Assembly: GCF_963678975.1 (NCBI RefSeq)
Contig: NC_089275.1
Location: 49,525,363 to 49,589,362 of the forward strand
Source of the DNA: Dysidea avara
Taxonomy: Eukaryota; Porifera; Demospongiae; Dictyoceratida; Dysideidae
Length of the DNA stretch: 64,000 bases
Direction of reading: 5' to 3'
Shown here: piece after piece, positions 1-61,943 of the stretch
How the letters are laid out: the number at the start of each line of letters is the position of its first letter
Position numbering within the stretch: position 1 is the stretch's first letter
Position numbers and translations under genes: made by a program
Notes under the pieces: model-generated
Seen by the model: only the letters and a program-made list of their open reading frames with translations
Told to the model about the DNA's origin: nothing
Database searches by the model: none

Positions 1-2840
1 ACTCTAATAGAGCAGTCATCCTAATAGAGCAGTCACCCGAAGAGAATTCAAGAGATCAGCTAGAAACAAGTCACCCTGTAGAGAGATCAGCCACAAACAA
101 TTCACCCTGTAGAGAGATCAGCTAGAAGAAGTTACCTTGTAGGGAATTCATGCAACTATAGAAAGAGATAATTCAGCTAGAAGAAATCACCTTGTAGAAT
201 TCAGCTACAAAGAAACCACAATGTAGAGAGTTCAGCTACAAACAAATCACCCTGTAGAGAGATCAGATAGAAGAAGTTAACTTGTAGAGAGTTCAGCTAC
301 AAAGAAACCATCATTTAGAGAGTTCAGCTGCAAACAAATCACCTGTAGAGAGTTCAGCTACAAAGAAATCTCCCTGTAGAGAGATCAGCTAGGAGAAGTT
401 TCCTTGTAGAGAGTTCAGTTACAAAGAAACCACCATGTAGAGAATTCGTTTACAAACTAGTGACCCTGTAGAGACATCAGCTAGAAGAAGTTACCTTGTA
501 AAGAGTTCAGCTACAAAGAAACCATTCTGTAAAGAGCTCAGCTGCAAAAAAATCACCTGTACAGATTTCAGCTACAAACAAATCACCCTGTAGAGAGATC
601 AGCTAGAAGAAGTTACCTTGTAGAGAGTTCAGCTACAAAGAAAACATCATGTGGAGAGTTCAGCTGCAAACAAATCACCTGTAGAGAGTTCAGCTACAAA
701 CCAATCTCCCTGTAGATAGATCAGCTAGAAGAAGTTTCCTTGTAGAGAGTTCAGCCACAAACAAATCACCCTGTAGAAAGATCAGCTAGAAAAAGTCACC
801 TTGTAGAGAGTTCAGTTACAAAGAAACCACCATGTAGAAAGTTCAGCTACAAACTAGTGATCTTGTGGAGACATCAGCTAGAAGAAACTACCTTGTAGAG
901 AGCTCAGCTACAAAGAAACCATTCTGTAAAGAGCTCAGCTGCAAACAAATCACCTGTACAGAATTCAGCTACAAACAAATCACCCTGTAGAAAGATCAGC
1001 TAGAAGAAGTCACCTTGTAGAGAGTTCAGCTACAAAGAAACCACCATGTAGGGAGTTCAGCTAGAAGAAGTTACCTTGTACAGAGTTCAGTTACAAAGAA
1101 ACCATCATGAAGAGAGTTCAGCTGCAAACAAATCTCCCTGTAGAGAGTTTAATTAGAAGAAGTTACCTTGTAGAGAATTCAGCTACAAAGAAAACATTCT
1201 GTAAAGAGCTCAGCTGCAAACAAATCACCTGTACAGAATTCAGCTACAAACAAATTACTATGTAGAGAGATCAGCTAGAAGAAATTATCTTGTATATAGT
1301 TGAGCTACAAACAAATCACCCTGTAGAGAGATCAGCTAGAAGAAGTTACCTTGTAGAGAATTCAGCTACAAATTTAAAGAAACCATCATGTGGAGAATTC
1401 AGCTGCAAACAAATCACCTGTAGAGAGTTCAGCTACAAAGAAACCACCATGTAGGGAGTTCAGCTAGAAGAAGTTACCTTGTAGAGAGTTCAGCTACAAA
1501 GAAACCATCATGAAGAGAGTTCAGCTGCAAACAAATCTCCCTGTAGAGAGTTCAGTTAGAAGAAGTTACCTTGTAGAGAGTTTAGCTGCAAACAAATCAC
1601 CTGTAGAGAGTTCAGCTAGAAACAAATCACCCTGTAGAGAGATCATCTAGAAGAGGTCACCTTGTAGAGAGTTCAGCTACAAAGAAACCATCATGTAGAA
1701 AGTTCAGCTACAAAGAAATCACCCTGTAGAGAGTTCAGCTAGAAGAAGTCACTTTGTAGAGAGTTCAGCTACAAAGAAACCACCATATAGAGAGTTCAGC
1801 TGCAAACAAATCACCCTGTAGAAAAATCAGCTACAAACAAATCACCCTGTAGAAAGATCAGCTAGAAGAAGTCACCTTGTAGAGAGTTCAGCTACTAAGA
1901 AACCACTATGTAGGGAGTTCAGCTAGAAGAAGTTACCTTGTAGAGAGTTCAGCTACAAAGAAACCATCATGAAGAGAGTTCAGCTGCAAACAAATCTCCC
2001 TTTAGAGAGTTCAGTTAAAAGAAGTTACCTTGTACAGAGTTCAGCTACAAAGAAACCATCATGTGGAGAGTTCAGCTGCAAACAAATCACCTGTAGACAG
2101 TTCAGCTACTAAGAAACCACCATGTAGGGAGTTCAGCTAGAAGAAGTTACCTTGTAGAGAGTTCAGCTACAAAGAAACCATCATGAAGAGAGTTCAGCTG
2201 CAAACAAATCTCCCTGTAGAAAGTTCAGTTAGAAGAAGTTACCTTGTAGAGAGTTCAGCTACAAAGAAACCATTCTGTAAAGAGCTCAGCTGCAAACAAA
2301 TCACCTGTATAGAATTCAGCTAGAAACAAATCACCCTGTAGAGAGATCAGCTAGAAGAAATTACCTTGTAGAGCAGCTACAGTAAAAAGAAACCACCATG
2401 TAGAGAGTTCAGCTGCAAAGAAATCACCCTTTAGAAAATTCTGCCACAAACAAATTGCCCTGTAGAAAGGTCAGTTAGAAGAAGTTATCTTGTAGAGAGT
2501 TCAGCTACAAAGAAACCACCATGTAGAAAGTTCAGCTAGAAAAAATTACCTTGTAGAGAGTTCAGCTACAAAGAAACCATCATCTAGATAGTTCAGCTGC
2601 AAACAAATCACCTGTAGAGAGTTCAGCTACAAACAAATCTCCCTATAGAGAGATCAGTTAGAAGAAGTTACCTTGTAGAGAGTTCAGCTACAAAGAAACC
2701 ATTCTGTAAAGAGCTCAGAAGCAAACAAATCACCTGTACAGAATCCAGCTACAAATAAATCACCCTGTAGAGAGAACAGCTAGAAGAAGTTACCTTGAAG
2801 AGTGTTCAGTTACAAAGAAACCAACATGGACAGTTCTGTA
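1..2840. repeat. 31-bp tandem array, left arm of giant foldback element
   Basis: About 90 head-to-tail units of 30-31 bp. Each begins GTAGAGAGTTCAGCTA and then takes one of three recurring endings: acaaacaaatcaccct, agaagaagttacctt or acaaagaaaccaccat. The variants often follow one another in order, giving a higher-order period of about 92 bp. The array starts within 40 bases of a dispersed motif (ACTCTAATAGAGCAGTC at 1-17). The same array recurs in reverse complement at 5390-6360 and again at 10915-13460, so it belongs to the mobile element and is not a local satellite. No coding potential. Confidence 0.9.
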
Positions 2841-2962
2841 ATAAATATATGTATTATATAATATATAATTTGTACATTTACTGATAAAATCAGAAATATT
2901 TAAGGTACATCTGCTTCATCTTTTCTTCTTCCTGTGGTAAAGAAAAAAAGATAGGTTTAAAA

Positions 2963-3352
2963 AGTCCCAAAGCAGGCCATAGGCCGGCTTTGGGGTATAC
3001 AAATACAAAAAGAAGTGAAATCTAATCCAAAACAGCCAAGCTGTAAAAAAAGTGTGCGGCCCTCAAAAAGGCTAGGGTGAAAAAAAGATGTGAAATCCAA
3101 GGTGGCGGCCAAGAAATGGCTGTGATGGTAGGTTAATGGTAAAAATTTTAATAACAACAATTCAGGTGAATTTTGGTGCCGCTTGGTCAATTGGCACAAA
3201 ATTCACCTGAATTGTCGTTATTAAAATTTTTACCATTAACCTACCATCACAGCCATTTCTTGGCAGCCACCTTGGATTTCACATCTTTTTTCACCATAGC
3301 CTTTTTGAGGGCCGCACACTTTTTTTACATCTTGGCTGTTTTGGATTAGATA
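2963..3352. mobile_element. Foldback MITE, copy 1 (inside giant element)
   Basis: A near-perfect hairpin: the left arm at 2975-3190 is the reverse complement of 3200-3350, both containing AATCCAAGGTGGCGGCCAAG or its complement, with a loop near 3190. Other copies are at 4868-5275 and 14165-14556. The right arm ends abruptly at AGATAT (3352), short of the full left arm. Confidence 0.8.
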
Positions 3353-4268: not shown

Positions 4269-4490
4269 ACAGTGGCGGATCTAGGAATTTATAAAGGGGA
4301 TTCCAGTTTACAAGGTGGAGATATACACTGACATGAGATACGCAAAAATCTGCACTACATTGTCTGGTTTGGTAAGGTGAGACCAAAAAAAAAAAAGTCG
4401 CAGAGCCTATTGATAAAGTACATAAATAAAAAAACTCGCTACACACTGCTTTAATTGCTACTGTGACTGCTCTATTAGAGTATCTCGATC
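4269..4490. mobile_element. Fragment of a GGCGGATC-ended element
   Basis: Starts AGTGGCGGATCTAGG and contains ACTACATTGTCTGGTTTGGT, which is also found at 54959-54978 in a similar fragment. It is followed by the dispersed motif at 4465-4490. Its right end was not found. Confidence 0.5.
4465..4490 (-). repeat. Dispersed 26-bp motif (core ACTCTAATAGAGCAGTC)
   Basis: A full-length copy on the minus strand. It directly joins GAGGCGCACGCC on its right. The palindromic heart CTCTA-A-TAGAG is intact. Confidence 0.85.
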
Positions 4491-4865
4491 GAGGCGCACG
4501 CCGCAATAGGGGTTTCCATGGAAACCTTGAAACCCCCATAAATCTTCCACTGGGAAAGGATTTTTATTGGGTTTATATGAAGCTGTAGACACTTATGGGT
4601 AGTGGCTATTGTACCACCAATCTCCCACCACCTTTGATCTTCTATAGCTATCTTGCAGTGTGTTAATGAAGATGTCAATGTCTGTATATATATGCATACA
4701 ATAACAATGATAATGAACATACACAATAATGATAATTATGGTACATCAATGTCATACATGCAACTCCATTATATTATAGTAGCTTGCATAAGTACATTAA
4801 AGTTTGAAAAAGTGAGGTTAAAAGTTGCATCTCATGGCATGACAGCGGTATTCGTCTTATCAGTA

Positions 4866-6360: not shown

Positions 6361-6386
6361 GACTGCTCTATTAGAGTATCTCGATC
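6361..6386 (-). repeat. Dispersed 26-bp motif at array/end-module joint
   Basis: A perfect copy sits exactly between the end of the inverted array and the start of the 800-bp end module. The second giant-element copy shows the same arrangement at 10874-10899. Confidence 0.9.
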
Positions 6387-7721: not shown

Positions 7722-7899
7722 CCGTAATTCGCTTTACTTTCGCGCAAAATTTTTTCATGAAAACAATTTTTGTGCAAAAATATTTTCGTATGATTTACGT
7801 GAATGACTGCTCTATTAGAGTGGTTCGATCTTGTATGAAAAATTTCGTGCAAGAAATTTTCATACAAATTTTGCATACGAAATAAAAAGCAAATTACGG
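7722..7899. mobile_element. Small palindromic MITE with the dispersed motif in its loop
   Basis: Terminal inverted repeats of about 70 bp (CCGTAATTCGCTTTACTTTC against its complement ending GCAAATTACGG) are flanked by TA on both sides, as expected of a TA-targeting element. The dispersed motif lies at 7805-7830, exactly in the centre where a hairpin loop would be; TATCTCGATC is changed to TGGTTCGATC. Confidence 0.8.
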
Positions 7900-10873: not shown

Positions 10874-10899
10874 GATCGAGATACTCTAATAGAACAGTC
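10874..10899 (+). repeat. Dispersed 26-bp motif at end-module/array joint
   Basis: Plus-strand copy with one change (AGAACAG for AGAGCAG). It is followed by a degenerate second copy, CCTAATAAAGCATTC, and then the array. Confidence 0.85.
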
Positions 10900-10914
10900 A
10901 CCCTAATAAAGCAT

Positions 10915-13460
10915 TCAGCTACGTTTATAACTTACTCCATTATAGAATTATATGACATTGCAAGTTATTCTGTAGGGAGTTCAGCTACAAACAGTTAATC
11001 TTATAGACAATTCAGCTACAAGCAAGTCACCCTGTAGAGAGTTCAGCTACAAATATGTTGCTGTAGAGATTCAGAACATTATAAGTCACACTGAAGAGAA
11101 TTCAACTATAAACAAGTCACCTTGTAGAGAGTTCAGCTACAACAAGTCACTCTGTAGAGAATTCATCTACAAACAAGTCACTGCGTAAAGGGTTCAGCTA
11201 CAAAAAAAGCTACCCAGTAGAGAGTTCATCTAGATCAGCTACAAACAAGTTACTTTATGCAATGTTCAGCTACAAGTAAGTCACTCTGTAGAGAGTTCAG
11301 CTACAACAAGTCACTCTGTAGTACAAACAAGTCACCAAGGAGAGAGTTCAGCTTTACAAACAAGATATAACTCTATAGAGAGATCAGGTAGAAACTTAAC
11401 AGCTCACACTGTAGATAGTTCAGCTAGAAACAAGTCATCCAGTAGAGAGATCAACTAGAAAGCATCACCTTGTAGAGAGTTCAGGTACAAACAAATCACC
11501 CTGCAGATAGTTCAGCTACAAACAAATCACCCTATAGAGAGATCAGCTAGAAAAAGTCACCTTATAAAGAGTTCAGCTACAAAGAAACCACCATGTAGAG
11601 AATTCAGCTATGAACAGATCATCCTGTAGAGAGTTCAACTAGAAACAAATCATCCTGTAGAGAGATCAACTAGAAGAAGTTACCTTGTAGAGAGTTCAGC
11701 TATAAAGAAACCAACATGTAGAGAGTTCAGCTGCAAACAAATCAAACTGTAGAGAGATCAGCTAGAAACAAGTCACCCTGTAGAGAAATCAACTAGAAGA
11801 AGTTACCTTGTGGAGAGTTCAGCTACAAACAAACCATCATGTAGAGAGTTCAGCTGCAAACAAATCACCCTGTAGTGAGCTCAGCTACGAAAGGATCACC
11901 CTGTAGAGAGTTCAGCTAGAAACAAGTCACCCTGTATAGAGAGATCAGCTAGAAGAAGCTACCTTGTAGAGAGTTCAGCCACAAAGAAACCACCATGTAG
12001 AGAGTTCAGCTGCAAACAAATGGAATTGTAGAGAGTTTAGCTACGAACAAATCACCCTGTAGAGAGTTCAGCTATAAACAAGTTATCCTGTAGAGAGATC
12101 AGCTAGAAGAAGTTACCTTGTAGAGTGTTCAGCTACAAACAAACCATAAGTTCAGCTGCAAACGAATCACCTTGCAGAGAGTTCAGTTACGAAAAGATCG
12201 CCCTATACAGAGTTCAGCTAGAAGAAATCACCTTGTAGAGAATTCAGCTGCAAAGAAACCACCATGTAGATAGTTCAGCTGTAAACAAATCATCCTGTAG
12301 AGAGTTCAGCTACGAACAGATCACCCGGTAGAGTTCAGCTAGAAACAATTAAGTCACCCTGCAGAGAGATCAGCTAGAAACAAGTTATCCTGTAGAGAGA
12401 CCAGCTAAAACAAGTCACTTTGTATGTAGAAAGTTCAGCTACAAAAATCACCCTGTAGAGAGGTCAGCTAGAAAAAGTCACCTTGTAGAGAGTTCAGCTA
12501 CAAAGAAACCTCCGTGTAGAGAGTTCAGCTGCAAACAAATCACTTGTAGAGAGTTCGGCCAGAAACAGGTCACCCTGTAGAGATCAGATAGAAACAAATC
12601 ACCCTGTAGAGAGATCAGCTACAAAGAAACCATCCTGTAGAGAGTTCAAGTACAAACCTATGGAGAGTTCAGCTAGAAACAATTCACCCTGTAGAGAGAT
12701 CAGTTAGAAGAAGTTACCTTGTAGAGAGTTCAGCTACAATCAGGTAGAGAGTTCAGTTGCAAACAAATCACCCTGTAGAAAGTTCAGCTTTGAACAGATC
12801 ACCCTGTATAGAGGTCAGCTAGAAGGATCACCCTGTGGAGAGTTCAGCTGCAAACAAATCACCCTGCAGATAGTTCAGCTACAAACAACTCACCCTGTAG
12901 AGAGATCAGCTACAAACAACTCACCCTGTAGAGAGATCAGCTGCAAACAGATCACCCTGTAGAGAGTTCAGCTACAAACAATTCACTCTGTAGAGAGATT
13001 AGCTAGAAGAAGTCACCTTGTAGAGAGATCAACTACAAAGAAACCATCCTGTAGAGAGTTCAGCTAAAAACAAATTGCCCTATAGAGAGATCAGCTAGAA
13101 GAAGTTACCTTGTAGAGAATTCAGCTACAAAGAAACTATCATGTAGAGAGTTCAGCTGTAAAAAAATCACCCTGTAGAAAGTTCAGCTATGAACAATTAC
13201 CCTGCAGAGAGTTCAGCTAGAAACAAGTCACCCTGTAGAGAGATCAGATAGAAGAAGTTACCTTGTAGAGAGTTCAGCTACGAAGAAACCATCATGTAGA
13301 GAGTTCAGCTGCAATCAATTCACCCTGTAGAGAGTTCAGCTACGAACAGACCACCCTGTAGAGAGATCAGGTAGAAGAAGTCACCTTGTAGAGATATCAG
13401 CTAAATACAAGTTACCCTATAGGGATCAGCTACAAACAAATCACCCTGTAGAAATATGTG
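10915..13460. repeat. 31-bp tandem array, third block
   Basis: About 80 units of the same family as 1-2840, more diverged at the left (10915-11350) and more regular to the right. Orientation is the same as 1-2840. Confidence 0.9.
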
Positions 13461-20735: not shown

Positions 20736-21605
20736 CAGAGGCGGATCCAGGGGGGGGGGGCTTTGGGGGCTGAAGCCCCCCCCCCCCCCTTCATATTTAG
20801 GCTTTACTTGATCAATATGCTGAGTATTATAATGAAATTTTGTCTTAGCATAATTATATGATCACTAATAATACAAATACTCATAAAACCACCTTATAAA
20901 CGTCTTTCCAAGGTATTATCAGTGGATTTATGCTAAAATTTAGGCAACAAGGACCCGAATCAGCATTGGAGGTTTACAAGATCGAGATACTCTAATAGAG
21001 CAGTCAGCTAACCACTCTAATAGAACATTCACTGGAAACATGTAGTTGGTTCTGTTATGGAATTTTTCTAAATTTGCCTGCACCTATACATACAATGAAG
21101 TGCATTGGTCTCTTTAAAGGGCTTCATTCATCTACTTGTGTAGTAAATATGTATGGCAATACTTAATTCAGGTACACAATTTCCATTGAAAATGCTCTCA
21201 GATTCAATCTTGTATTGTTCAAATTCCAAAATTTTCCACTTTCAACATTATTATTTTAACATGCACCTATTCAGTGTTGTGCAATTGTGAGAGGTGTGCA
21301 TCATGTACTTGGTTGTCTGTACCTACCCAAGCTTTTCCATGAGCAAAATGCTTCAGAGAGCCATACCTATAATCTAAAGGCAGTATATAAAATATCTACA
21401 GGCAGAAAATATTATGAATTTTATGTGGAAACGTCTCTGCAGTATTTTTAGCAACTATTTTTCAAAATTTTCCTGGGGGGGCATGCCCCCAGACCCCCCT
21501 AGTTCCAGAATGCTTTGCATGCTGGGAGTGTGCTTTGCACACCTCTACCCAAGAGATTAGACCTTGAGGTAGCCCCCCCTTTTATAAATCCTAGATCCGC
21601 CCCTG
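20736..21605. mobile_element. 870-bp GGCGGATC-ended MITE, copy A
   Basis: Imperfect terminal repeats (CAGAGGCGGATCCAGG and CTAGATCCGCCCCTG) are flanked by a 5-bp duplication, CTAGT (20731-20735 and 21606-21610). G and C runs sit just inside both ends. The dispersed motif pair lies within at 20980-21029. It matches 42292-43135 in inverted orientation. A 5-bp duplication fits some hAT subgroups; no transposase is encoded. Confidence 0.85.
20980..21029 (+). repeat. Dispersed motif pair
   Basis: A perfect motif is followed 6 bp later by a second half-copy, ACTCTAATAGAACATTCAC. The same two-part layout occurs at 42852-42904 and 53430-53490 in related transposons. Confidence 0.85.
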
Positions 21606-24960: not shown

Positions 24961-25012
24961 AATACTCTAATAGAACATACATCTTAGATAAAATACTCTA
25001 ATAGAGCAGTCA
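24961..25012 (+). repeat. Dispersed motif, two partial copies
   Basis: AATACTCTAATAGAACATAC is followed by AAATACTCTAATAGAGCAGT, about 90 bp past the 3' end of KAR-1. Confidence 0.75.
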
Positions 25013-38000: not shown

Positions 38001-41000
38001 AGCAAAAAAAAATAATTAGGTAACATTGCTCAACCTCTAAAATTTTGCCCCTTGAAATATTTAGACTAGGAGCCAAGGTATCTGGATAAGTACCCAGTCC
38101 TCACTGAGGAAGCAGTATCGTTCAAGAAGAGTAGTAGTGGAATGTATCAACAAAATACTCTAATTGAACAGTCATGCTTGGGGTCTGACAATTATTAACA
38201 TTTCAGTTGTAGGATCTCCTTGAATTATGGTCCAGATGTAAACTTTTCACCCCAGTAATTAAACAAGACTCATAACCACGGGAGACCAGTGTTTATATTA
38301 GACCAGCGAGCCCTGATTCACTCTCTTAGAATCACAAAACTTAATATTGCACCATCTTGTTCTCCCCAGCATATAGGCTTTTTGTTTCATCGCTGCACAG
38401 AATTGCTTGAAACAATCACTGCACCAGATGCTTATTTTAAACCTGCCACATTTGTGTTGGAACTCTGTTGTACATGTAATTACCCCTGGCAACTAAACCA
38501 AGTAATACAGTAGTTGACATCAACCCTCCACTGTGTGATAAATAGTATGTACTTACTTGTAAGGCATGAGATAAGGTACCAGATGTTCTGTTCTGCACCC
38601 CAATGGTTGCTAGGGCATCATGAACATATTTTTGAGCAGAAGGTGCTGTGAAAGATGGTTGAGTGATCCCCGTCATTTTGGTAGCAACAAAAGATGGAAG
38701 AACACTCTAGAATAATACTAAATATTAAAACACCCTATACAGCTCACATGATCCCCACCTGTACTATTATTCCTTTATCAGAGTACTCATAATGAAGAGC
38801 TGAACTGAAGTAGTCCATGAAAATCTGACCAATAAAATGTGATGATGACAAGTGTTACATCATACAACCCCTTATTACCTTGGAAGCAGAATACACATTC
38901 ATCAAAGGACTTGGGCTGAGAGCACCAGCTGATGACATGTTAACTACAATACCTTTCTTCCTACAGCATACACATTAGTGCTGAAACGATTACTCAGTTA
39001 TTTGACTATTCGGTTGGCATGACACTATTTGATTTGTTAACACACTATTCGAATAATTGTTAGCACTTTGTACACTGTATTCAGATGGAAAAGCCAGCCT
39101 TGAAACTTGAGATTGTGAGTGAAGTGATGTATCTATGCTAAAAAGTCTATTTTAGAAAAAAAATAGCTCTTAGGGTTTACCTTGCTCCCTAACAAAAGGT
39201 TTCAGTACTTATTCAACAGAGTATAAAGCTTAAAGAATAATCGAATATTCGGTTGTCTTGTTCACACCTATTCAAATAGTAAAATTGCTATTCATTTCAG
39301 CACTGATATACAAAATTGTAATATATATATATATATATATATATTGTGTGTGTGTGCGTGCGTGTGTGTGTGTATGTATGTGTGTTTGTGTGTGTGTGTG
39401 TGTGTGGGTGGGGGGCTACTACAAGCCATTTGAATGTTTGTAGCAGTGTTATTGATCAAAACAGCAACACAAAGCCAATGCTAAAATGTTGTGTATATAA
39501 ATAGTGGTAGTCAAGAAACATCTTTAACAACATGATGAGTAGCCCTGACTCAACATTTTGTCCAAATGCCCCACCTACAGGGTAAACCACTAATGGGAAT
39601 AACTTAAAAATCAGTATACATATAGGTTAACCATCATAACTCAAACCTTTTGTGGTTTAAAAGAAATCGCATTGACAGCTACAGAGTTACAAGGCTAAAA
39701 CCAAATAACCATAAATCGGTGGGTCAAAATACTCTAATAGAACAGTCACCGTGATGTAAGGGAGATGCCAACCGATTTTAGTATGCTTGATGTCATAATG
39801 ACGTTAAGGGAGGAGGGGGTTCAGCCCATGACGTTATTAATTTTTAATAGAGAAAGTGATGTGAATAAGCAGCTATGCCATTTGTAGACTGTTTTCAGGT
39901 AAAGAATATAATGTTTTGTGCTTCTATTTCCAATGCATTGTTTTCACAGTGTGATGCTAAGGGGGGGGGGGGGGGGGGGGAATGGGGGTCTAAAGTTAGT
40001 GTCATTATAAGCGTACCAAAATCAGTTTGGAGATACCCCCTAAAAAGGTGCATAAAAGTTACTGACCAGCGTTCAAACCAGGGACTTCCATGCTGAACAC
40101 CCAAATCCTTAACCACTGAGCCGCTGCTATACAGCTGTTCACCTCACTTAATGTCTACTTTATATATGAAAATTCTAGCTAAAATCTACTTGATAGTCAA
40201 GTTCATAATTTCATGGAGCAGGCCAAAGAGTGGGGGGAGGGGTGAGCAACTGTGACAATGAAATATACACAATGAAGTTTGAGGCATAGTATGGATGTTA
40301 TTCATTGGTCCTTGACCCCAGGAAAGTTTTAATACTTTATGAGAGAGTACAAAGAGATGATTTTAGCAAATATTTAAAGTTAAAAGAAATGTAAACTAGT
40401 GATTGACTGCTCTATTAGAGTACCTTCTTGTAAACATTGCCCAATGAAAGTGGCCCCCATTTCCACTGCCTGTGGCACGCAAGTTATTGAACAATAACAT
40501 GGTTGATAATTGATTGCTTATATATACTATAACTCATTAAATAACACAAAGAGCTACTAACACTCTTACTTCTCTACCATACCAGGCATCACTATCTTGG
40601 TCATCTACATTTGAAAATACATTCAATCAAATCACAGGTGTTAATCCATACCAACCATCACAGTAGATGTCATGTTGACATTGATCAGTTGCCATAGCTT
40701 CTCTTCTGGCACGTTGAGGAAGTAGTCTGGCATGTCATAAGTAACGCCAACATTATTAATTAGTATTCCAATCTCTGTTCCTGATAATTGTGAACTAATT
40801 CCATCATAGATGTCAGTTCTGCTGAAATCAGCAATCACAATCCTTACTGCTACATTGTACAGGTCCACTGTATCCATGGAGATGGGATATGACCATTAAC
40901 ACACATACATTACAGCACAGGGATTAATACAATGAAACAAGAGAGACTTCTATCCATACTATGTAGCTACTAAAATTTATAATTTTATACTCTAACGCAT

Positions 41001-44000
41001 TGACTGTCTTAACTGAGCTCTTAAGAAAGAACGGCTCCAGATAACGATCAGACATCAGACAATTTCTGGACAAATTAGCCCATGTTCTGACCATAATTGT
41101 ATTTGGCAGGACATAATGTCCTATCAAAGGAGCCCAGGGTGTGTGTATGTGGTTTACTTTACTATTAATAGCTGTCTCTTGGTTGCTAGGAGATTAAACA
41201 TTCAAGCCACCCAAGAGAATGACCAAAAACGTACCAATGCCAACCTCTCTGCTGTACAAAAACCTCACAAATCACTTTAATAGCGCCTACAGCTAGAGTG
41301 CCTTACATCAGAGAATGCCTACTACAGGCAGTGTTATAGGCCACCTGTGTCCATGCAAAGTATAAATATGTCTGGCCAAGTTTGGGTTTATCAGGACATT
41401 TTGTCCCAGCACTTAAGAATTCTTATCGGGAGCACTGATATTACATCACAAAACATGCACTTCAATTGCTTTCAGTAACGTATATACATATGCTCTTCCT
41501 AGCTTTACAGCGTACATGTGAGAAACAGTGTGTGAAGCATGTCAGCAATTAATCCATTTACCTTGACTATAGTGTGAAATTTAGGACAATATTGTTTTGT
41601 AAAGGCCATGGATGCACTAGCTACTCACGAATTGACCCCTTTGTGGTACAAGCAAAGACAAATGAGAAACAACGAAGGATAAAGGTAAGTCCACTATGAA
41701 TTGTGAAAGAGGTATATGTTGGGCCCAAGCAACGTCAAAATGTGAAAATCATAATCCATTTTAAGCACTTGTCAAGTGTAGCATCTATTAGAGTATCTCA
41801 CTTTTTTGTAGCAACTAATTTTCATCACTTTCTGTTCAATAGCTGCCTTGACTGGCTCGACAGTAGTTACAACACTGAAAAGGCATCATTCGTTGGTAAA
41901 TCAGTAGTAGATTTTCCATTAAATTACTCGCTGGAAGCAGTTAAGGTCATATTGAATGCATATATCACCTGATCGTATACAAAATAGTTGCCAATAAGCC
42001 ATGAATGTAACAATGGTTTCTAGTTGACATTTATTGGTAAGATAACACATACCTTATGAACCCTACAATAACACTACTGTACTGCACACTCACAAATTTC
42101 CTTCTTAACTGATCTCAACTTCTCGACTGACCTGGCCACCAACACAACATTAACTCCATGTTTTGCAAGCTACAAATAAACAAAATTAATACAGAATCAT
42201 AATAATGAATTTCCTTGCATAAACTCCACTCCTTCCAAGCAACTCATACCTTAAGACTCTCAACCAGTATTTTAAAACTGTTAGTCAGCCGCAGGGGCGG
42301 ATCTAGGATTTATGAAAGGGGGGGGGGCTAACTCAAGGTATTAATCTCTTGGGGTAGAAGTGTGCTAAGCACACTTCCTATGGGGGGGGGGGGGGGGAGG
42401 GGGGTCTGTAGGCATGCCCCCAGGAAATTTTTGAAAAAATAGATGCTAAAATACTGCAATTTGGAGACATTTCCACATAAATTCATAATATTTTCTGCCT
42501 GTAGATATTATATATACTGCCTTTAGATTATAGGTATGGCTCTCTGAAGCATTTTGTTAATGGAAAAGTTTGAGTTGGTACAGACAACCAAGCACATGAT
42601 GCACCCTCTCACAATTGCACAACACTGAATAGCCGGGTGCATGTTAAAATAATAATGTTGAAAGTGGAAAATTTTGAAATTTGAACAATACACAAGATTG
42701 AATCTGAGAGCATTTTCAATGGAAATTGTGTACATATTAACTACACAAGTAGATGAATGAAGCCCTTTAAACAGACCAATTCACTTCATTGTATGTATAG
42801 GTGCAGGCAGATTTGGAAAAATTCCATAACAGAACCAACTACATGTTTCCAGTGAATGTTCTATTAGAGTAGTTAGCTGATTGCTCTATTAGAGTATCTC
42901 GATCTTATACACCTCCAATGCTGATCCAGATCCTTGTTGCATAAACATTAGCATAAATCCACTGATAATACCTTGGAAAGATGTTTATAAGGGAGTATTT
43001 GTATTATTAGTGATTGTATAATGATATACAAAATTTCATTATAATACTCAGCATATTGATCAAGTAAAGCCTAAAAGTGAAGGGGAGGGGTGGGGGCTTC
43101 AGCCCCCAAAGCCCCCCCCCCCGGATCCGCCCCTGAGCCGGCTTTCAGTAAAATTTTGTGTTTTAAAATTTGTTATCTGAATGCTATAACTGCATGGCTA
43201 ATGCTATCACTGCATGGCTAATGCTATCGCTGCATGGTTAATGCTATCACTGCATGGCTAATGCTATCACTGCATGGCTAATGCTATTGCTGTATGGCTA
43301 ATGCTATCGCTGCATGGCTAATGCTATTGCTGCATGGCTAATGCTATCGCTGCATGGCTAATGCTATTACTGCATGGCTAATGCTATTGCTGCATGGCTA
43401 ATGCTATCGCTGCATGGTTAATGATATCACTGCATGGCTAATGCTATCACTGCATGGCTACTGCATGGCTAATGCTATCGCTGCATGGCTAATGCTATCG
43501 CTGCATGGCTAATGCTATCACTGCATGGCTAATGCTATTGCTGTATGGCTAATGCTATCGCTGCATGGCTAATGCTATTGCTGCATGGCTAATGCTATAG
43601 CTGCATGGCTAATGCTATTACTGCATGGCTAATGCTATTGCTGCATGGCTAATGCTATCGCTGCATGGCTAATGCTATTACTGCATGGCTAATGCTATTG
43701 CTGTATGGCTAATGCTATCACTGCATGGCTACTGCTATCACTGCATGGCTAATGCTATCGCTGCATGGCTACTGCATGGCTAATGCTATCGCTGCATGGC
43801 TAATGCTATCACTGCATAGCTAATGCTATCGCTGCATGGCTACTGCATGGCTAATGCTATCGCTGCATGGCTAATGCTATCGCTGCATGGCTAATGCTAT
43901 CACTGCACGGCTAATGCTATCACTGCATGGCTACTGCATGGCTAATGCTATCGCTACATGGCTAATGCTATCACTGCATGGCTAATGCTATCACTGCATG

Positions 44001-47401: not shown

Positions 47402-50400
47402 CTATTGCATCTTCTGCTTCATCCTGATCACTGCCATTCTTAAATTACTCAGTACTCTGAGTGTGATCTTTGCTATTAACCAGTCTGGTAGTATGGAGAA
47501 TGGTATTACCTGTGAGATAATATGACATCACAATCACCAGAATAACTACATACACATTACAAGTAAACAGTAACTTAAATTATGCTTAGAATGCACCAGT
47601 GTACAAATTCAGGAGGAGACTAAGTCAGAATGATACATTCTTAGGAGTATAACTGAAAGCAAAAGCCACTTAACATCTGATATACTCTAATAAAACAGTC
47701 AGCACATTTACATGTTTGTATAAAAGAAATGTAAAAGTTACCATTAGCAGGGATTAAATCTCTTACCTCTCAATCTATACGTCTCACTACTCTACCACCC
47801 TATTAGCCTCAGCGCATAATTTTAACCAGCTTTGTACATACCAGTAAATTTCAACTCACCTTACTGGTAGCTCCACGCATGCTTACAAACAGTATCACAC
47901 ACATTCCAATAATAAAGTGGGTGTGGATCACAAAAATCTGGTCCACCACAAGAATGCAGATTGGCTCGTACAATAACTGTCAATTAGTTCCATGTAAGCC
48001 TGCAGATAGTAATGGGATGGGTTCATGTATATTGTAATACTACTCATAATGGGCATGGCTTCAAAAAAGAGCTTGGCTGCAGCAGGACTAGACTATGATG
48101 CATTAACATGCTTCCACACCATCTAATCAATTACACGATCCGATCCATATCAGACCCAGATAATCTATAAACTGGACAAAATGTGATCCAGTTGACTCGG
48201 ATGACCCAAACTAGTCTCAACACTATTGTTTACTACTTCATAATGTTTAACTATCATTGATGCTTGCAGGTTACATGCCTTCATCAGACTATATGTATGT
48301 CACACAGTACACTGGTACACTATAGTTATAGTACACTGGTACACTATAGTTATAGTACACTGGTACACTATAGTTATAGTACACTGGTACATTATAGTTA
48401 TAGTACACACACACACTCAGCACACATGGATACTCACTTGTAAAGCATGTGATAAAGTACCAAATGTTCTGTTCTGTATCCCGACTGTTGCCAGGGCATC
48501 ACAAACAAACTTTTTAGGAGCAGGTACTGTGAAAGAAGATTGTTGGATTCCTGACAGTTTCGTGGCAACAAAGAATGGCATGACACTCTACAGTGAAGGG
48601 TATAATTATGACATCACCCCATACAGCTCACATGATCCCACCTGTACTATTATTCCTTTATCAGAGTACTCATAACGAAGAGCTGTACTGAAGTAGTCCA
48701 TGAAAATCTGACCAATGAAATGTGATGATGACAAGTGTTACATCACACCACCCCTTGTTACCTTGGTAGCACAGTATATGTTCATTAAAGGAATAGGGCT
48801 GAGAGCAGTAGCTGATGAAACGTTAACTACAATACCCTTCTTTCTACAGTAAACAAATCATCATAATATTATACTGTGGGGACTACTACAAGTCATTTCA
48901 ATGTTAGTAGCAGTTATCTAGACCAAAACAATTAATGGTTTAACATTTAAAAGTGTTAGAAAAAGTTTTTAATGATGTTAATGAAATATGTAACATTACT
49001 AACTCCACAAAAAAAAAAAACTGTGATAAACCTGAAATATCAAAAATGAGATATGATTACTCATCAGTAGCATCATTTTAAAGATTGATCCCTATTATAC
49101 CATGTGAACTGATGTGTAAATATACTTTTCTCTCAATGACTTCTTTGTTGCCTAGAGGAAATAATCAAAGAAGTTTTAGCTAATCTCTTGGAGTTATGGT
49201 GATTGATAGCAGATTGTACAGTGACCATACTCAACTGGTAACATGGCCTTAAGGTGTTAGTACTGATGGTCATACTCAATGGTGAAGTTAGCTGGTACTT
49301 ATCTTGTGTTATTTGGAACAGAGCTACAAAATCCAGTAATAAACATCAGCACCATGTGAATGCAATTAATTTATTGTACTTGTGGAGAAGTGCCAAAGCA
49401 TTCAATAGAACAATCACTTTACCATTCATTGATGAAGTGACAAATGCAACCATTAACAGTGGCAATTCTAGTCCTGAAATATGATGGCAGAAAATAAACT
49501 TTATTGTAAGGATGTGAATTTCAAGAGGTTAACTGCAAGAGTTTTGAAATTTAAAGGCTTGAAAATGGTGCTTAAAATGCTAAAATGAACAATGCCAATT
49601 TGTACTACAACTTTTCCCCACAAAATGTATTTTTCAAATGGCCCCCTCTATTTGCCTATGACCAATAACAGTCTCACCTGTCAACCATACCAGGCATCAC
49701 TATCTTAGTCATCTGTGATTTAATAAATACATCCAATCAAATCACATATGGTGAGCCACAACCCACCATCACAGTAGATGTCATGTTGACATTGATCAAT
49801 TGCCATAGCTTCTCTTCTGGCACGTTGAGGAAGTAGTCTGGCATGTCATAAGCAACGCCAACATTATTAATGAGTATTCCAATCTCCATTCCAGATAATT
49901 GTGAACTAATTTCATCATAGATGTCAGTTTTGCTGAAGTCAGCAATCACAATCCTCACTTCCACATTGAACTGGTCTACTGTAACCATGGAAATGGATTA
50001 TGTGACCTAATTTTAGAAAACCGTTGATATCCGCACAATTTTCAAAATGTATTTTATTTGTTCTTTGTTTTCTACAGGGACAGAGGAATGGACTAGCTAA
50101 GTTTCAGCTTCCTAAGTTAAGCAGCGTTGGAAATACAGCACTAGACAGCCAGACGAGCAAATAAATTGATATGTACAGAAGCTATCGAGAAAAGAATCTA
50201 CAGGTGCTTACATAAACCATCATAACTTACTGATACAACGACGTACGGAATTGAATCTTTGTTCATTGTGTTCGCCATGCATTTGTGCATCCACCAAGGT
50301 ATAGTTTTTCCCCAGGCATGCTTCTGTGTTCGAGAAGGAAGGCAAGTTCACTGAAAAATGATCGTCGGTAAATTCTTTCATCACCACAACGTAAACAAAT

Positions 50401-53400: not shown

Positions 53401-54626
53401 AGCGGAATCAATTTATATGATTCTGCTGAATGCTCTATTAGAGTAGTTAGGTGACTAGCAAGAGTAAATTGCTATTAGAGTATCTCGATCTTGTGCACTC
53501 CCAGTACTAATTCATGCAGTATTCCATTCTTGCATAACCTTTTAACACAAATCCCCAAGGCAAAGCCATAAGTTGACTAATGAGTATAGCAATTGCTTTA
53601 CTTTAGCAACTGGACATTGGAAAACCTCCACTTTTTAAGTGAAGGGCCCTCTGCCTCCTCCCCCCCATTTCTCCACCCCTGACTAGCCATATAAGAGTAT
53701 CTGCCCATAAACAGTCTTGCCTGCCAGGCTGTATTGTCATTTGAATGGAAAACAGACAGTGATCTGCTATTGAATCATGAATAGTATGTATTCATAATGG
53801 AATTATTATTCATAGTACTGTCAGTAATGATGAAACGACTTACGATTGGTATTCACCCAACCATATATGGCAAAAGACAAAAATGAGTGTAGTACCTAGT
53901 AAGTATACAGGTGGCATAAGAAGGGGCTAGAGTTTCCCCAACTTTAAGATGAGAGGCAACAGAGCCCCTCAAAAAATTACTTTGTGTGGTGTCACCAGAT
54001 TTAATCTCACAGTACTTATCATGGAGTTTCCAAAATTTTCAGTGCGTGGGTACCAGATTCCTCTAAAAGGAGCAAGCTTTGCACACCGCTGTAATCACTG
54101 CAAGCTTGAACATGCCTCTATGTAATGGTGTCTAAGTTTGAGCCAACAACTTTGTGACCGGCACCTTCTTACACCTCTGTACATTAGTAGTGTAGGTCCT
54201 AAGCTTGCTGACTGGAACCATGTTGCAACATCATAATATTGGCTGGGTAGTATTACATCACTGAAATTTATTTATGGTTGAGTTTGTAAGGTTTGAGGTT
54301 AATTATAACCACCTCAATTACCGGTCAGACTACCTGCCAGACTCACTTGTATAGCATATTCCTTTCCAATGCCATCAGAAGCGCCAGTCACAACTATAAT
54401 AAGCGCGTATCATCAGCTGTAATATTACTAGTGGCTACTCACCAGCCCAGCCATAGGATTTGAGGTCAACTACACGAAATAGTCCAGCGAGGAAGAACGC
54501 TTTAGTACCACTCCATAATGATAGTAATAACCATATCATGAACCTCAACAAATAGAACACTCCCACTAGAAACACGATGTTCCGTATCGTCGGGGACTCG
54601 TACAACCACACCAATAACTGCAGCAT
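47402..54626 (-). CDS. HSD17B12-like: KAR-3: very-long-chain 3-oxoacyl-CoA reductase / 17-beta-HSD12-like
   Basis: Nine exons: 54443-54626, 54347-54393, 51630-51705, 49767-49978, 49678-49712, 48762-48843, 48642-48707, 48438-48587 and 47402-47509; 319 residues. A start two codons upstream (54632) is also possible; 54626 aligns with KAR-1. Hydrophobic N terminus, TGASDGIG at 64-71, NNVGVAYDMP from 140, VSSATALSPIP, then Tyr208 and Lys212 (YCATK). It is close to KAR-2 and KAR-4 in all exons. The C terminus MKQKMQ keeps Lys at -3 and -5 (KxKxx type ER retrieval signal). Introns 1, 4, 6 and 7 are 49-54 nt. Introns 2 and 3 hold transposons. No stops or frameshifts; probably functional. Confidence 0.92.
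47683..47815 (-). mobile_element. Possible tRNA-derived SINE head with adjoining motif
   Basis: On the minus strand GGGTGGTAGAGTAGTGAGAC (A-box-like) is followed by GAGATTTAATCCCTG (B-box-like) at SINE spacing. A partial dispersed motif (ACTCTAATAAAACAGTC) adjoins at 47684-47700. KAR-3 intron 8. Confidence 0.4.
48305..48410. repeat. 24-bp minisatellite
   Basis: Four to five units of TACACTATAGTTATAGTACA type, ending in a short (AC)n run, 28 bp from exon 8 of KAR-3. Confidence 0.9.
50001..50648. mobile_element. 648-bp TA-flanked element in KAR-3 intron 3 with an open frame
   Basis: The terminal repeats TGTGACCTAATTTTAGAAAA and TTTTCCAAAATTTGGCCACA are flanked by TA on both sides; the repeat continues as CCGTTGATAT. 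Inside, a minus-strand frame of 92 codons (50220-50498) starts MDKSWESSCLPVHREYKNLC and is higher in GC than its surroundings. It matches no transposase that I know and could be a captured host exon. The element begins 22 nt upstream of exon 4. Confidence 0.75.
50880..50990. mobile_element. Fragment of the 850-bp GGCGGATC family
   Basis: GGGGCATGCCTCTAGACCCC and the following GCATGCTT-type text match the inner part of 20736-21605. KAR-3 intron 3. Confidence 0.5.
51066..51300. mobile_element. 235-bp palindromic MITE
   Basis: 93-bp arms (TGGTACTGCCCAAGTGCAAC to GGCAGTACCA) flanked by TA duplications (51064-51065 and 51301-51302). The centre is AAACAGCTGCCATGCTGTCT. The 60-codon frame inside is a by-product. 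KAR-3 intron 3. Confidence 0.85.
52595..53380. mobile_element. Nested element with ATCCCAGTGCG inverted repeats
   Basis: TTATATCCCAGTGCGCGGGA near 52655 pairs with TCCCACGCACTGGGATGTAA near 53335. The subterminal palindromes GTTATATCCC-type (52605-52650) and GTTATCACC-type (53230-53270) suggest a foldback transposon. Its 580-bp interior shows no supported frame. Confidence 0.6.
53471..53490 (-). repeat. Dispersed motif pair, decayed
   Basis: GCTATTAGAGTATCTCGATC with the partner TGCTCTATTAGAGTAGTTAG at 53431, as in the related 844-bp element. Confidence 0.75.
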
Positions 54627-54896: not shown

Positions 54897-55265
54897 CAGG
54901 GGCGGATCCAGACTTATGGAAAGGGGGTGGGGTGGGGGGTCAAAATGAACTCTGAGACACTACATTGTCTGGTTTGGTAAGGTAAGACCAAAAAGTCACA
55001 CTGAGCCAGCTGAAAATAACTGCCCACCTCACGACGTATTTATCACTGATAAAGTTTATTAGAATGACTGCTCTATTAGAGTATCTCGATCTTAATAAAG
55101 AATTTTGGAGGGGGGTCAGGAGCCCCTTTTGACCTCCCCCCTTTGGGAAACTTTAAAATCAGTGTGGGAGAAAGGGTATGCCCTTTATAAAGATCGAGAT
55201 ACTCTAATAGAGCAGTCAGACATGATGTATACAGTAGTCTAACTACTCTAATAGAACGTTCATAA
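54897..55265. mobile_element. GGCGGATC-ended element with an inverted motif pair
   Basis: Starts CAGGGGCGGATCCAG and shares ACTACATTGTCTGGTTTGGT with 4269. It contains two full dispersed motifs in inverted orientation (55066-55091 and 55192-55217) around 100 bp of G/C-run-rich DNA, and a third partial copy at 55241. The right end was not found. It lies between KAR-3 and KAR-4. Confidence 0.6.
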
Positions 55266-55841: not shown

Positions 55842-58800
55842 CTATTGCTTCTTCTGCTTCCTCCTAATTGCTGCCCTCCTCACATTACTCAACAATCTGA
55901 AGGTGACCTTTGTTATCAACCAGTCTGGTAGTATGGAGAATGGTACTGCCTGTGAGGTAATATACCACTGGGTTAACAACTAACACAAGTAAACACTGCA
56001 GTATTTAGACTCCATTTAAAATCAACTTAGTACATATAGGTGATGATGAAACAGAGGGAGCTAAGCAATACTCTGAACTACACAGATGTACTACTAACGT
56101 ACTCTAACAGGATGGTCAAACACTCTAATAGAGTAGTCAACACCCACAATGTGATAAACTATCAGTTGGGACCAGACACAGTTAACACTTACTGGGATTG
56201 GTAACAGAAGCATCTACGTCATTATTTGTATACAAAATCCTCAATGTTACGTCATAGCCTTTGATGTTATCCGCGTTTGGCCTTACTGCGTTGGTACAGA
56301 TAACTCACTTTCTGTACACATTTCACTTCAACTACTTCACTACGAGGTTGTATTACACACTAATGGAGCCATTAGACTGCAATATACTGAGGTAAAACGT
56401 TTCTGCTGGTTGTGAATTTCGTTTTTGTAACCGTGTCAGTTGAAAGCGCAGGTTGGACTCGATGAAAAATGGGCTTGTATCTTTTTCACCTGTGAGTATT
56501 TAAACTAATTTATATGCTGAGTGCATGTCTCATGGCCATGACTAATAAGTAGAGCCTACTTTATCCAGTGAAACTGCTCTGCTTTGTAGTAAGATGTACC
56601 AAAAGTAAGTGAAACACAAATCCCACGTGCACCCACTTCTGTTTCCAATCCCGGTAAGCGTTACTGTATCTATGCTGGGACTGAATCATTTACCTCAACT
56701 GGTGATCTTACCATATTCCAAGCCTTCTCCACCTTAAAGACACAAAAATAAACTGCTACAGCAGCTAAGATATTTGCAACACCCAAACTGTAGACAGAGC
56801 CAGAGACAGGGAAAATGTGGAGTTAAATAAATCCTCAAGCCATTTGTGGTGCTTCTGTACTAGCATGCTACAGGCTTGGACCTTCGAAGTCATAAAATCA
56901 ACTACACCGTCATTTTATCATTGTACATAATATTCTTGGGAGGTAAAATTTAAAGTTTTTATTCATCCAGATACTGTATGTGACCCATCTCAGCAAAACA
57001 CCACTATAGCTAACTGCCTTTTGACTAAAACTACTCACCATTATAAGGCCAACATTTTGTTTCATGTCACCCACCCACATGCCACTTTACCTACCACATT
57101 GGTAATTTAGAAATAGTTTTGTGTTAAAGATCAAGATTCTTTAATAGAGCAGTCAAGATCAAGATTCTTTAATAGAGCAGTCAAGATCAAGATTCTTTAA
57201 TAGAGCAGTCAAGATCAAGATTCTTTAATAGAGCAGTCAAGATCGAGATACTCTAATAGAGCAATCAGCAACTCTAGTATAACACTCAATTATTTTACTA
57301 CAGCCATTATCTATTTACTGGGAGACATTTTACTACTCCTCTAAAAGTGTTACTTTACTACTAAATTTCTTGGAGAGTGTTTTGTTGTTGTCTGTGACAC
57401 ATATGAAAAGTCCAATACTTGAAACATCTATCCTGTTGATTGAAACAAGTTGGCTGGTGGACAGTGCATTGTCATTTTGAAGGCTCATCAAAATAATGAA
57501 ATTTTAGTTATTAATAATTGCTGCCCTCACTACCTGGTTGTTCTCAAGGTGACGGAAAACAAGAAATCTTATTATGTTAGCCTAAGCTAAAACTTTCCTT
57601 GGATACTGTAGAGACAATAAAAAGACATTTCAAACTATGCAACAGGCAGTTACATTGCTGTACACACTACATTATACAATACACTCACCTGTAGAGCATG
57701 TGATAAAGTACCAAATGTTTTACTCTGCACTCCAATGGTTGCCAGGGCATCACATACATACTTTTTAGGGTTGGGTGCGGTGAAAGAAGATCGCCGGATT
57801 CCTGACAGTTTGGTTGCAACAAAAAATGGCAGGACACTCTACAGTGAAGGAAACCATGTCACCCCATACAGCTCGCATGATCCCCCACCTGTACTATTAT
57901 TCCTTTATCAGAGTACTCATAACGAAGAGCCGAACTGAAGTAGTCCATGAAAATCTGACCAATGAAATGTGATGATGACAACTGTTACATCATACAACCC
58001 CTCGTTACCTTGGTAGCAGCGTACACACCCAACAAAGGACTTGGATTGAGAGCAGAAGCTGACGACACATTGACTATAATACCTTTCTTCCTACATCATA
58101 GATTACCATGGAAATGAAAAAGGTTTGTATATAACATTCCAAACCAAACTATTTCATCAACACAAGTTATACATTCACTGGTATGTATGTAGTCAAGGAG
58201 TAAGCCTATTGGTTGTGAACCACAGAAGAAACCAATACACTATTGGGACTAGCGCATTACACAAGTAACTACTTAACTGTGTTGTTGTGAGATAGTGCAT
58301 GCCTTATTTGGGTTCTTGATCTAACACATTGGGATGTGAGGATTGTAGCAGCAGTAGAGCCGCAATTATCTGAACAACACTAGGATGGAGGTTAAATCAT
58401 CGCAGGAAAGATGTTTCATTATATTAAGTGTATTAGGATAATTGAAGAGAACACAGATATGTTAAAGCTTGAATAGAACCATAACTGTCCCCTTCACACA
58501 CACACACACAATAGCAAAAGCAAAGCCTACGGCTGCCATATGAAACACAGCTATTGCCGTCCAGTGAACCAGCACTGGGATTCCTGTGCACCACTCAGGC
58601 ACTTGAGACAAATCCTCCAGGGGTAGAGCTAGTAAACCACAGGAGGACTGTCCATATCTCACGGAGAGAGACGTTGCAGAACCCCAAGTTCCACAATGAC
58701 CCCAGACAAGGACAGCTGGCATTTCCTTTTTCCCAGTTAACACCAGGTACCCATTGATGTTACAGCTGGGTGGGTTGCTTCTCTAGATGACACCAGGCCA

Positions 58801-58944: not shown

Positions 58945-59000
<56 letters not shown>

Positions 59001-60929: not shown

Positions 60930-61262
60930 CCTTGATCCTCCCAGATTACTCACGTGTGACCTCGACCTTTTCACTTTATACGCAATTTGTAGTCTGGCGC
61001 CGCCCGCCTCAGCTCTCCCACTGTGCAAGAAACGTGTCTATGATAGACTGGTTATAGGTTTGCAAGTGTACTTATACGTCCTGCATCAATCTATAATCGA
61101 ACGGGGGGCCGTGCCAGACTACATGGACTCCTGGGTTGAAGGGGTGTGGCTACAGCAACGGTGCAGCCTACACATTGCAAGCAAACTCCTAATGAAAGTG
61201 AAAGTCTTGGTTAACGCAGAGAATACAAAGAGTTGTTGTAAATGGATCATGTGGCTACATGG

Positions 61263-61943
61263 CATAGGCGGATCTAGGAGACACTGTCAGGGGGGGCCAA
61301 GGGGGGGCAAGAAGTTTTAGTGCACAACAGTGTTTATTCTACTATGAGCTACGGGGAAATTCTAGAACACAAGTTATATTCATTTGCATAACCTTATTCA
61401 GCATATAGCTGGATGAACGATGGACATACAGTTTGTAAAACTGTAGTTGGAGAAAATTTTAAAAATCAGACCTCCCAGGTTTGAATTTCAGAGCATTTTT
61501 GATAATGCTTAGCTTAAAAAGTGTATGATTTGCAATGCGTACAAAGATTGGTTAGCCTATCTGAGATAACTTGTTTGATGGTAAAGTGTATACCTAAGGA
61601 GTAGCTAACATTGTTACGATTTGTAAAATTTGTAAATTGATGACATCAGAATTGCGACTATTCTATTAGAGTAGTGACTGCTCTATTAGAGTATCTCGAT
61701 CCTTGCACAAAATTCAAATTTATTTGCCTCACTTTCTTTACGGTGTACAGTTTAACTATAAATGTTAGGCACATTTATAAGCGTTGTCTTCTATTTGCCA
61801 ATTGGCTTTCTATACTTCTAAATGCAGTGTGAATGCATGATTCTAGTTTCTGGTATACATATGGTACTGTAGGTCCAAGGGGGGCCAGAGAAGGGCCAGG
61901 GGGGGCACAGCACCCCTTGGCCCCCCCCTCAGATCCGCCTATG
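61263..61943. mobile_element. 681-bp hAT-like MITE inserted in the LINE
   Basis: The ends CATAGGCGGATCTAGGAG and CTCAGATCCGCCTATG are flanked by a perfect 8-bp duplication, CTACATGG (61255-61262 and 61944-61951). G runs lie inside the left end and C runs inside the right. The dispersed motif is at 61676-61701 with a half-copy at 61656. It is a relative of the 850-bp family by ends and layout. Confidence 0.9.
61676..61701 (-). repeat. Dispersed 26-bp motif
   Basis: A perfect copy near the centre of the 681-bp element, with the partner TTCTATTAGAGTAGT directly upstream. Confidence 0.9.

Follow-up and report, generated by a model that had tools for sequence, protein, structure and literature searches.

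In this study, we report a short directional sequence box, 18-27 letters in overall length, that is dispersed through the genome of the sponge Dysidea avara and lies inside DNA transposons with different ends and different target duplications. The window analysed is the whole stretch of 64,000 nucleotides between positions 49,525,363 and 49,589,362 of contig NC_089275.1 (assembly GCF_963678975.1, forward strand), and it was considered together with DNA sampled elsewhere in the assembly. In our reading, to which we give a probability of roughly 0.45, the box may be a protein-binding site that active DNA transposons keep because it helps them to spread, and would not be a self-mobile 26-bp element.

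Abundance and anatomy of the box

The box consists of a head (approximately GATCGAGAT) followed by one or more 18-bp units (ACTCTAATAGAGCAGTCA), and a 17-letter core (ACTCTAATAGAGCAGTC) was used as the search word on both strands, with up to three mismatches. The window contained 38 core matches, 13 of them exact, against 0.16 expected from 100 shuffles; they group into 22 clusters, 11 of which hold several units. This agrees with the preliminary description of this DNA, made from its letters alone, in which a motif dispersed at more than 20 sites was claimed. The 19 sites listed there are real, although near 10874, 35497, 39729, 42879 and 57241 the core has one mismatch, and the copy at 53471 (53472-53492) breaks off after ACTCTAATAG, a fuller unit being present at 53428. 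Additional copies were found at 18, 10900, 21014, 23007-23070, 24964, 28598, 35468, 38157, 42854, 47684, 55245, 56122, 57138-57222 and 61656. A survey of 12-mers yielded 153 words at at least five separate places, and among the 60 inspected those of the motif were the most dispersed (up to 17 separate places, against at most eight for satellite words), with no third kind of dispersed word seen.

The 550,814,596-base assembly contained 32,528 exact cores (16,216 + 16,312) and 11,673 exact 26-mers (5,846 + 5,827), while the reversed pattern was found zero times in both cases, and a chance palindrome was rejected on these controls. In an unselected sample of twenty 10-kb stretches, picked by position from contigs 1 and 4 (200 kb; the window lies on contig 4), there were 73 copies with up to three mismatches, 11 of them exact, versus one for the reversed control. 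The motif is thus enriched genome-wide, and a lack of enrichment, which had been named as a possible refutation, is itself refuted. Scaled from this sample, the copies in the genome number about 200,000. The density of exact cores in the window is about 3.4 times the genome mean.

The anatomy was studied in the random genome sample, with 50 copies standing first in their cluster and 23 standing later. First units read aaaaagATcgAgAT-ACTCTAATAGAGCAGTCA. Information was 1.9 bits at position +17, which is outside the search word, and 0.0 bits at +18, and the unit therefore has a sharp right edge at ...GTCA; on the left side, information fades gradually through the head. The head, which had been described as usually preceding the core, is common but not universal, being present within two mismatches in 23 of the 50 first units and in none of the 23 later ones. 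The unit is AT-rich and its 18 bp contain no CpG. Its heart, CTCTA-A-TAGAG, is near-palindromic as previously noted, but the full unit is directional, with GCAGTCA on one side only.

Neighbouring units up to 80 bp apart were direct in 47 pairs, convergent in two and divergent in none (49 pairs, 86 loci). This count pools the window, the random sample and the loci found by exact core, and omits neighbours closer than 8 bp, which are palindromic double hits, and pairs more than 80 bp apart, among them the divergent pair 55066/55201. Spacings were mostly 17-32 bp, with 17, 21, 28 and 25 as the common values. In the host families presented below the spacing was 17 in family 1, 21 in most of the J copies seen and 25 in D and K, and it looks like a family trait. 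The only two convergent pairs seen (L042, 1455-1517; L046, 1501-1555) could each, as judged by eye, fold into a hairpin whose stem measures about 20 bp.

Host elements

Inverted ends accompanied by a target duplication were sought around 21 window loci, and acceptable ends were found at six of them (E1, H, D1, F, D2 and G). At these six loci the hosts do have different ends and TA, 5-bp or 8-bp duplications, as had been proposed. The elements and the boxes in them are as follows, together with an E-like element and a family K.

4270..4552, minus strand: hAT-like element E1, end CAGTGGCGGATCTA, 5-bp duplication GGAAA
4465..4490, minus strand: head and unit in E1, exact 26-mer
7722..7899, no strand: miniature inverted-repeat transposable element (MITE) H, 178 bp, near-palindromic, TA-flanked, CCGTAATTCGCTTT ends
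7805..7830, minus strand: head (GATCGAACC) and unit, centre of H
20736..21605, plus strand: hAT-like element D1, CAGAGGCGGATCCA, 5-bp duplication CTAGT
20980..21030, plus strand: head and two units in D1
22808..23255, minus strand: hAT-like element F, TAGGGATGCGG... end
23007..23116, minus strand: head and four units in F
28598..28639, minus strand: family K, two units, second copy in L044
42292..43135, minus strand: hAT-like element D2, 5-bp duplication AGCCG
42854..42904, minus strand: head and two units in D2
54897..55148, minus strand: E-like element E2 with a clear left end and a degenerate right one (placed by eye)
55066..55091, minus strand: head and unit in E2, exact
61263..61943, minus strand: hAT-like element G, CATAGGCGGATCTA, 8-bp duplication CTACATGG
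61656..61701, minus strand: head and two units in G

The ends of H differ at one of 14 letters, which no shuffle reached, and with its TA duplication and matching inverted ends H is a mariner-like MITE. The ends of E1 differ at three of 14 letters and alone are no better than shuffles; it was retained because D and G have a matching end. The duplication of F can be read as 8 bp (GCTGTGAT) or 10 bp (AGCTGTGATT), and 8 bp was preferred in view of L042, whose ends are similar and whose duplication is clearly of 8 bp. When the window loci were shuffled, a pair was found in 7 of 20 (five TA, two 5-bp), always with three mismatches; the TA end pairs around 55201 and 57138, also with three mismatches and hence at chance level, were dropped. 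Among 28 further exact-core loci, six had matching ends and a duplication, against 0 of 28 shuffles, and the duplication was of 5 or 8 bp at three of the 28 (L042, L077 and L080). Several of the designated loci are the same place (L077/L092, L083/L093, L086/L094, L049/L090 and L072/L091). In longer stretches, L093 proved to hold a complete D-type element and L097 a further J element.

Ends of hAT elements are CAGGG/TAGGG-like, and by their ends and their 8- or 5-bp duplications D, E, F, G and J can be placed in the hAT kind. These hAT-like hosts look nonautonomous. D, E, G and J have CANNGGCGGATC-type ends in common and may be one hAT group. The objection that all hosts descend from one ancestor that carried the motif may accordingly hold in part, since the ends of these four are alike, but the ends of F and H are different, and the sequence of family 1, with its own ends unmapped, is another one.

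Some additional traits of the hosts were noted. F is enclosed by larger inverted arms (22730-22808 and 23393-23470; 79 bp, 84% alike) and seems to sit within a second MITE. At 43180-44472, about 66 copies of a 20-bp satellite (AATGCTATCGCTGCATGGCT) adjoin the outer end of D2 (43135). A second block, CACTACATTGTCTGGTTTGGTAAGGTRAGACC, is near-identical in E1 (4353-4389) and E2 (54958-54994), while much of the surrounding sequence is not, and E elements may thus hold two conserved blocks. GGAAA seems to flank both E1 and the putative E2 (4265-4557 and 54892-55153), with different outer flanks, possibly as an insertion-site preference.

Family 1 as a possible donor

Family 1 is a long element with unmapped outer ends. 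It is organised as a left part with 190-bp repeats, the box, an array of a 31-bp satellite (up to 2.8 kb, or none) and a 340-bp foldback, and it is represented in the window by the following features.

1..34, plus strand: left end of family-1 copy A, two units, head truncated by the window edge
51..2820, plus strand: 31/61-bp satellite array adjoining the box, copy A
3020..3351, no strand: foldback palindrome, far end of copy A; also at 4865-5204 and 14217-14556
6361..6386, minus strand: head and unit, exact 26-mer, copy B (about 4865-6957, outer ends unmapped)
10874..10916, plus strand: head and two units, copy C (about 10301-14556, satellite 10970-13452)
39731..39747, plus strand: single unit; the family-1 left part that contains it (39567-39757) is strongly diverged

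At L051:4441 the box abuts, by eye, foldback sequence with almost nothing in between. When the first and last 190-bp units are compared, their ends align through the head and into the core; ATCGAGATTAGCTAATA and ATCGAGATACTCTAATA are identical at 14 of 17 letters in L053 and L068, and the alignment scores of the 190-bp unit beat all 300 shuffles in four of six copies, with a tie in a fifth copy and, in the sixth, a score lower than that of the best shuffle. The head is in register with the 190-bp unit, and therefore the head and the left half of the core look native to family 1, which would be the best candidate source of the box.

The number of 17-bp units varies in this family, with one at 6361, two in L068, three in L094 and four in L096. 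Given that the satellite adjoins the box and that the unit number varies, our data suggest that the arrays grew beside the box, the homology being weak. The 31-bp satellite is similar to the doublet (20 of 2000 shuffles are as good), but to the 18-bp unit alone it is no more similar than chance (592 of 2000). A minisatellite seed, in which an unstable monomer would expand by slippage and spread with its arrays and conservation would be homogenisation, could account for the variable unit number, for the likeness between satellite and doublet and for a 28-bp tandem array at 57127-57267. We nevertheless consider it very unlikely, given the chance-level score of the 18-bp core, the one or two units that most loci hold, and the different spacings (17, 21 and 25) that the families keep.

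Inheritance within families

The search for H was made with a query that contained the box; 40 of 1,422 candidates were scored, and ranks 21-40 were fetched. In this biased set the box was at the same place in 20 of 20 copies. Apart from the window's own H, the 39 other scored matches span 147-166 bp, against about 131 expected without the box, and no short (empty) copy was present among the 40 scored.

Queries made of flanks only were run against the sampled DNA, with own copies counted. The family-1 flank gave 25 hits that reach the box-proximal end, and 14 of them run into a core with 0-3 mismatches, which in L062 belongs to the second unit, part of the first one being deleted. First 190-bp units make up the other 11, and for nine of them a box of the same element follows about 190 bp downstream; of the remaining hits, one runs off its stretch, and for that in L060 the surrounding 10 kb are free of a box. 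When the diverged flank of 39731 served as query, 20 hits reached the end, seven with a core at 0-3 mismatches; most of the 13 others are first units, but the hit in L059 leads into a decayed box. The box was present in all the hits of J (3 of 3), D (2 of 2) and K (2 of 2, plus two short second-unit matches), and in two of three for H, the third being a 43-bp match without box, while the flanks of G and F matched only themselves. In the sampled families the box is thus inherited.

These results bear on the suggestion that the motif is a tiny mobile module, in other words, that the 18-27 bp unit reaches new sites by its own insertion or by being pasted there. The sharp right edge, the change of flanks on both sides, the units added without a head and the presence in different hosts would be expected of such a module. 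On the other side, no duplication was recognisable by eye around single copies, all the fetched H copies were filled and the others too long to be empty (with the bias stated), and the head of family 1 is in register with the family's own unit. As an ongoing process the module is not borne out, and we regard a self-spreading unit as highly improbable.

Conservation of the box and its limits

Among 13 family-1 copies chosen by motif, the core had an identity of 0.957 against 0.744 in the flank, and without CpG columns 0.957 against 0.760, with none of 217 flank windows reaching the core. Leaving out the two most diverged copies gave 0.964 against 0.824 (0 of 223 windows), and a second run, to which the flank-found decayed L059 and partly deleted L062 were added, gave 0.909 against 0.733 (0 of 204 windows). 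In pairwise comparisons the core and flank counts were 19/19 versus 116/210 for E1/E2, 18/19 versus 189/233 and 17/19 versus 160/236 for pairs of J, and 18/19 versus 109/156 for a diverged pair of H. For 21 close copies of H the values over all columns were 0.965 and 0.889.

Several observations weigh against our reading. Without CpG columns, the H values become 0.965 and 0.930, with 11 of 70 flank windows reaching the core and 948 of 20,000 random column sets reaching its identity. K (19/19 versus 476/528) and D1/D2 (18/19 versus 449/473) give no signal. The paralogue pair 47684/56122 is weak, with 4 of 19 letters differing (binomial P 0.059). Random unrelated pairs score an identity of 0.61 with the same aligner, and therefore the diverged flanks of E1/E2, like those of D1/G, may lack homology. 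Family-1 relatives carry a decayed box in L059 (7 of 19 mismatches) and have lost part of the first unit in L062. No acceptable ends were found at 15 of the 21 window loci (none at 13, and the two dropped TA pairs) nor at 22 of the 28 further loci. Additionally, plain tandem duplication also yields the head-to-tail order, and most copies were found through the motif, which biases retention upward.

Selection on the box in every family was dropped once CpG columns were removed, the excess in H being then nearly gone; since most of that excess vanishes, single inserted copies look neutral. The simplest reading would be a constraint on the active source lineages together with a neutral decay of the inserted copies, and it would fit a box useful to transposons better than a site needed by the host.

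As a general explanation, genomic binding sites that the host uses for regulation or architecture (as promoters, enhancers or loop anchors) and that transposons have spread, as for HIM-17 in Caenorhabditis and CTCF in mammals, are in our opinion distinctly unlikely. The defined directional unit and the clustered copies would suit such sites, as would the similar distance of the unit from a shared block in two gene paralogues (161 bp at 47684 and 159 bp at 56122), but the flanks of these paralogues align no better than random pairs (0.59 versus 0.61), and the H copies lack clear constraint after CpG correction, so that most sites there would not be host-maintained. A small co-opted fraction is compatible with the data. 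A chromatin-anchor role for some sites was put aside, given that one report gives chromatin loops as absent in the sponge Ephydatia muelleri (PMC12221973).

Descent alone, by which the hosts would be mosaics or relatives of one old nonautonomous group and the box a passive passenger, seems unlikely to us. It would explain the ends shared by D, E, G and J, the similar distance (about 240 bp) of the doublet from the left end in D and G, the inheritance of the box within H, and the decay of H copies, much like that of their flanks without CpG columns. Nevertheless, the ends of F and H differ from those of the GGCGGATC group and H is a TA-flanked MITE, while family 1 is a different sequence, with its own ends unmapped, in which the core is better kept than the flanks after CpG correction.

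Proposed role of the box

According to the transposon-useful reading, one lineage, perhaps family 1 with the related stretch in its 190-bp unit, would have been the first to have the box, and the box would have passed by recombination or nesting into other nonautonomous families, within each of which it would now be inherited. Its binder would be a sequence-specific host protein, probably dimeric or in the form of clustered monomers, which once bound might raise the chance that the element is copied, for instance by keeping chromatin open where the transposase is active. The active source lineages would then be held to the box sequence, while inserted copies would decay neutrally. Among the options offered in the preliminary description, that of a regulatory box captured by many elements fits best, given that the box is internal to several element kinds, inherited, and conserved in family 1, although its regulatory role is putative only. 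The option of a favoured insertion target found no support in these data, in which filled alleles were not set against empty ones. A wider proposal, that several DNA-transposon superfamilies and a satellite-bearing family share one docking sequence for a single host protein, as a common propagation licence with about 200,000 directional sites, is in our view doubtful.

What normally identifies a transposon family is its ends and genes. Here an internal word recurs about 200,000 times and is common to elements whose ends differ, which suggests that they all depend on a single host factor, for whose discovery the box is a ready affinity bait. It also offers a natural experiment on the spread of protein-binding sites by transposons in an early-branching animal with little-known DNA-binding factors.

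Other copies and context of the window

The remaining copies in the window are listed below.

24964..25011, plus strand: two units, no head
27584..27609, minus strand: head (GATTGAGAT) and unit
35468..35512, minus strand: two units
38157..38173, plus strand: single diverged unit
40405..40421, minus strand: single exact unit
47684..47700, plus strand: single unit, possible paralogue of 56122, at a similar distance from the shared block
53428..53492, minus strand: truncated head copy (53472-53492) and unit (53428-53444) in diverged D-like sequence
55192..55261, plus strand: head and two units, divergent to the 55066 copy
56101..56138, plus strand: one weak and one good unit
57127..57287, plus strand: five tandem 28-bp copies of head and unit, and one degenerate unit

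Large nested palindromes (27796-28461; arms up to 156 bp, 99% complementary) lie between two motif sites. The window looks eukaryotic, with one stop-to-stop stretch of at least 150 codons and four related gene copies in separated exon blocks. These four short-chain-dehydrogenase-like genes (25301-60896, minus strand), which we take by eye to be HSD17B12-like, have exon blocks 66-93% alike and introns that align poorly. The gene content appears to be that of an animal. Two of six translated pieces matched the short-chain dehydrogenase family in Pfam, both below the curated cut-off, and Rfam gave no match above the gathering score in the window.

Other sequence collections and known systems

In a search of the literature for the letters ACTCTAATAGAGCAGTC and TCTAATAGAGCAGTC, with subscription papers and repeat libraries outside its reach, no paper describing the motif was found; one of four 13-mers occurs in two papers, apparently both on Drosophila. 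In viral contigs, both the 26-mer and the satellite word were absent; shorter patterns matched 1, 34 and 3 contigs, none of them with the extended module within five mismatches or with more than one site within two mismatches of the 19-letter core. In bacterial and archaeal contigs the 26-mer was likewise absent, and the 19-mer matched three contigs, which is about chance by estimate. Two of these look bacterial by eye, and in the third (L002) the match is in the AT-rich, eukaryote-like end of a contig of the Rhodobacteraceae metagenome-assembled genome SP12ARB1, which comes from a Lamellodysidea herbacea sponge metagenome (PMC7313196). This contig end (L002, about 4240-5370), where the sequence turns abruptly AT-rich, is likely a chimeric assembly or host DNA, and the match, which counts for its location and not for the number of hits, is only a hint that sponges carry the motif.

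In rodents, CTCF sites were spread by the short interspersed nuclear element (SINE) B2 as a directional protein site of about 20 bp in very high number. Unlike that case, with one SINE family and a known protein, the box occurs in several DNA-transposon types and its protein is presumed.

Ctenophores have a lineage-specific motif at mapped loop anchors, bound by CTEP1/CTEP2 (PMC12221973), which is like the box in being a lineage-specific motif of a non-bilaterian, but it is GC-rich and has two CpGs, whereas the box is AT-rich and its unit has none. The CENP-B box and CENP-B-box-like motifs are conserved among dissimilar satellite DNAs, with a proposed role in rearrangement (PMC3694981); the likeness, by description and not by letters, is that of a short motif conserved across otherwise dissimilar repeats, while most copies of our box are dispersed and many are in or near DNA transposons. 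The short interrupted repeat cassettes of Arabidopsis (PMC10342631) are listed among the closest systems.

The box would work most like the m1/m2 motif pairs of Caenorhabditis, which are carried in the CERP2 and CELE2 MITEs and bound by HIM-17, with thousands of directional copies, pairs 10-30 bp apart and many copies in nonaccessible regions (PMC9757741). In both systems a directional motif is carried in MITEs with inverted ends and target duplications (here at 6 of 21 and 3 of 28 loci), and motifs are paired at short spacing. In CERP2 and CELE2, two related MITEs, the inverted repeats carry two distinct words with a known binder, whereas here one word is repeated head to tail in hosts with different ends, in about 200,000 copies, and the binder is putative, the comparison being one of arrangement and not of motif letters. 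MITE-borne motifs and motifs shared across dissimilar satellites were already known from these sources, and the case of Dysidea avara differs in being one word common to elements with different ends and duplications, at a much higher copy number.

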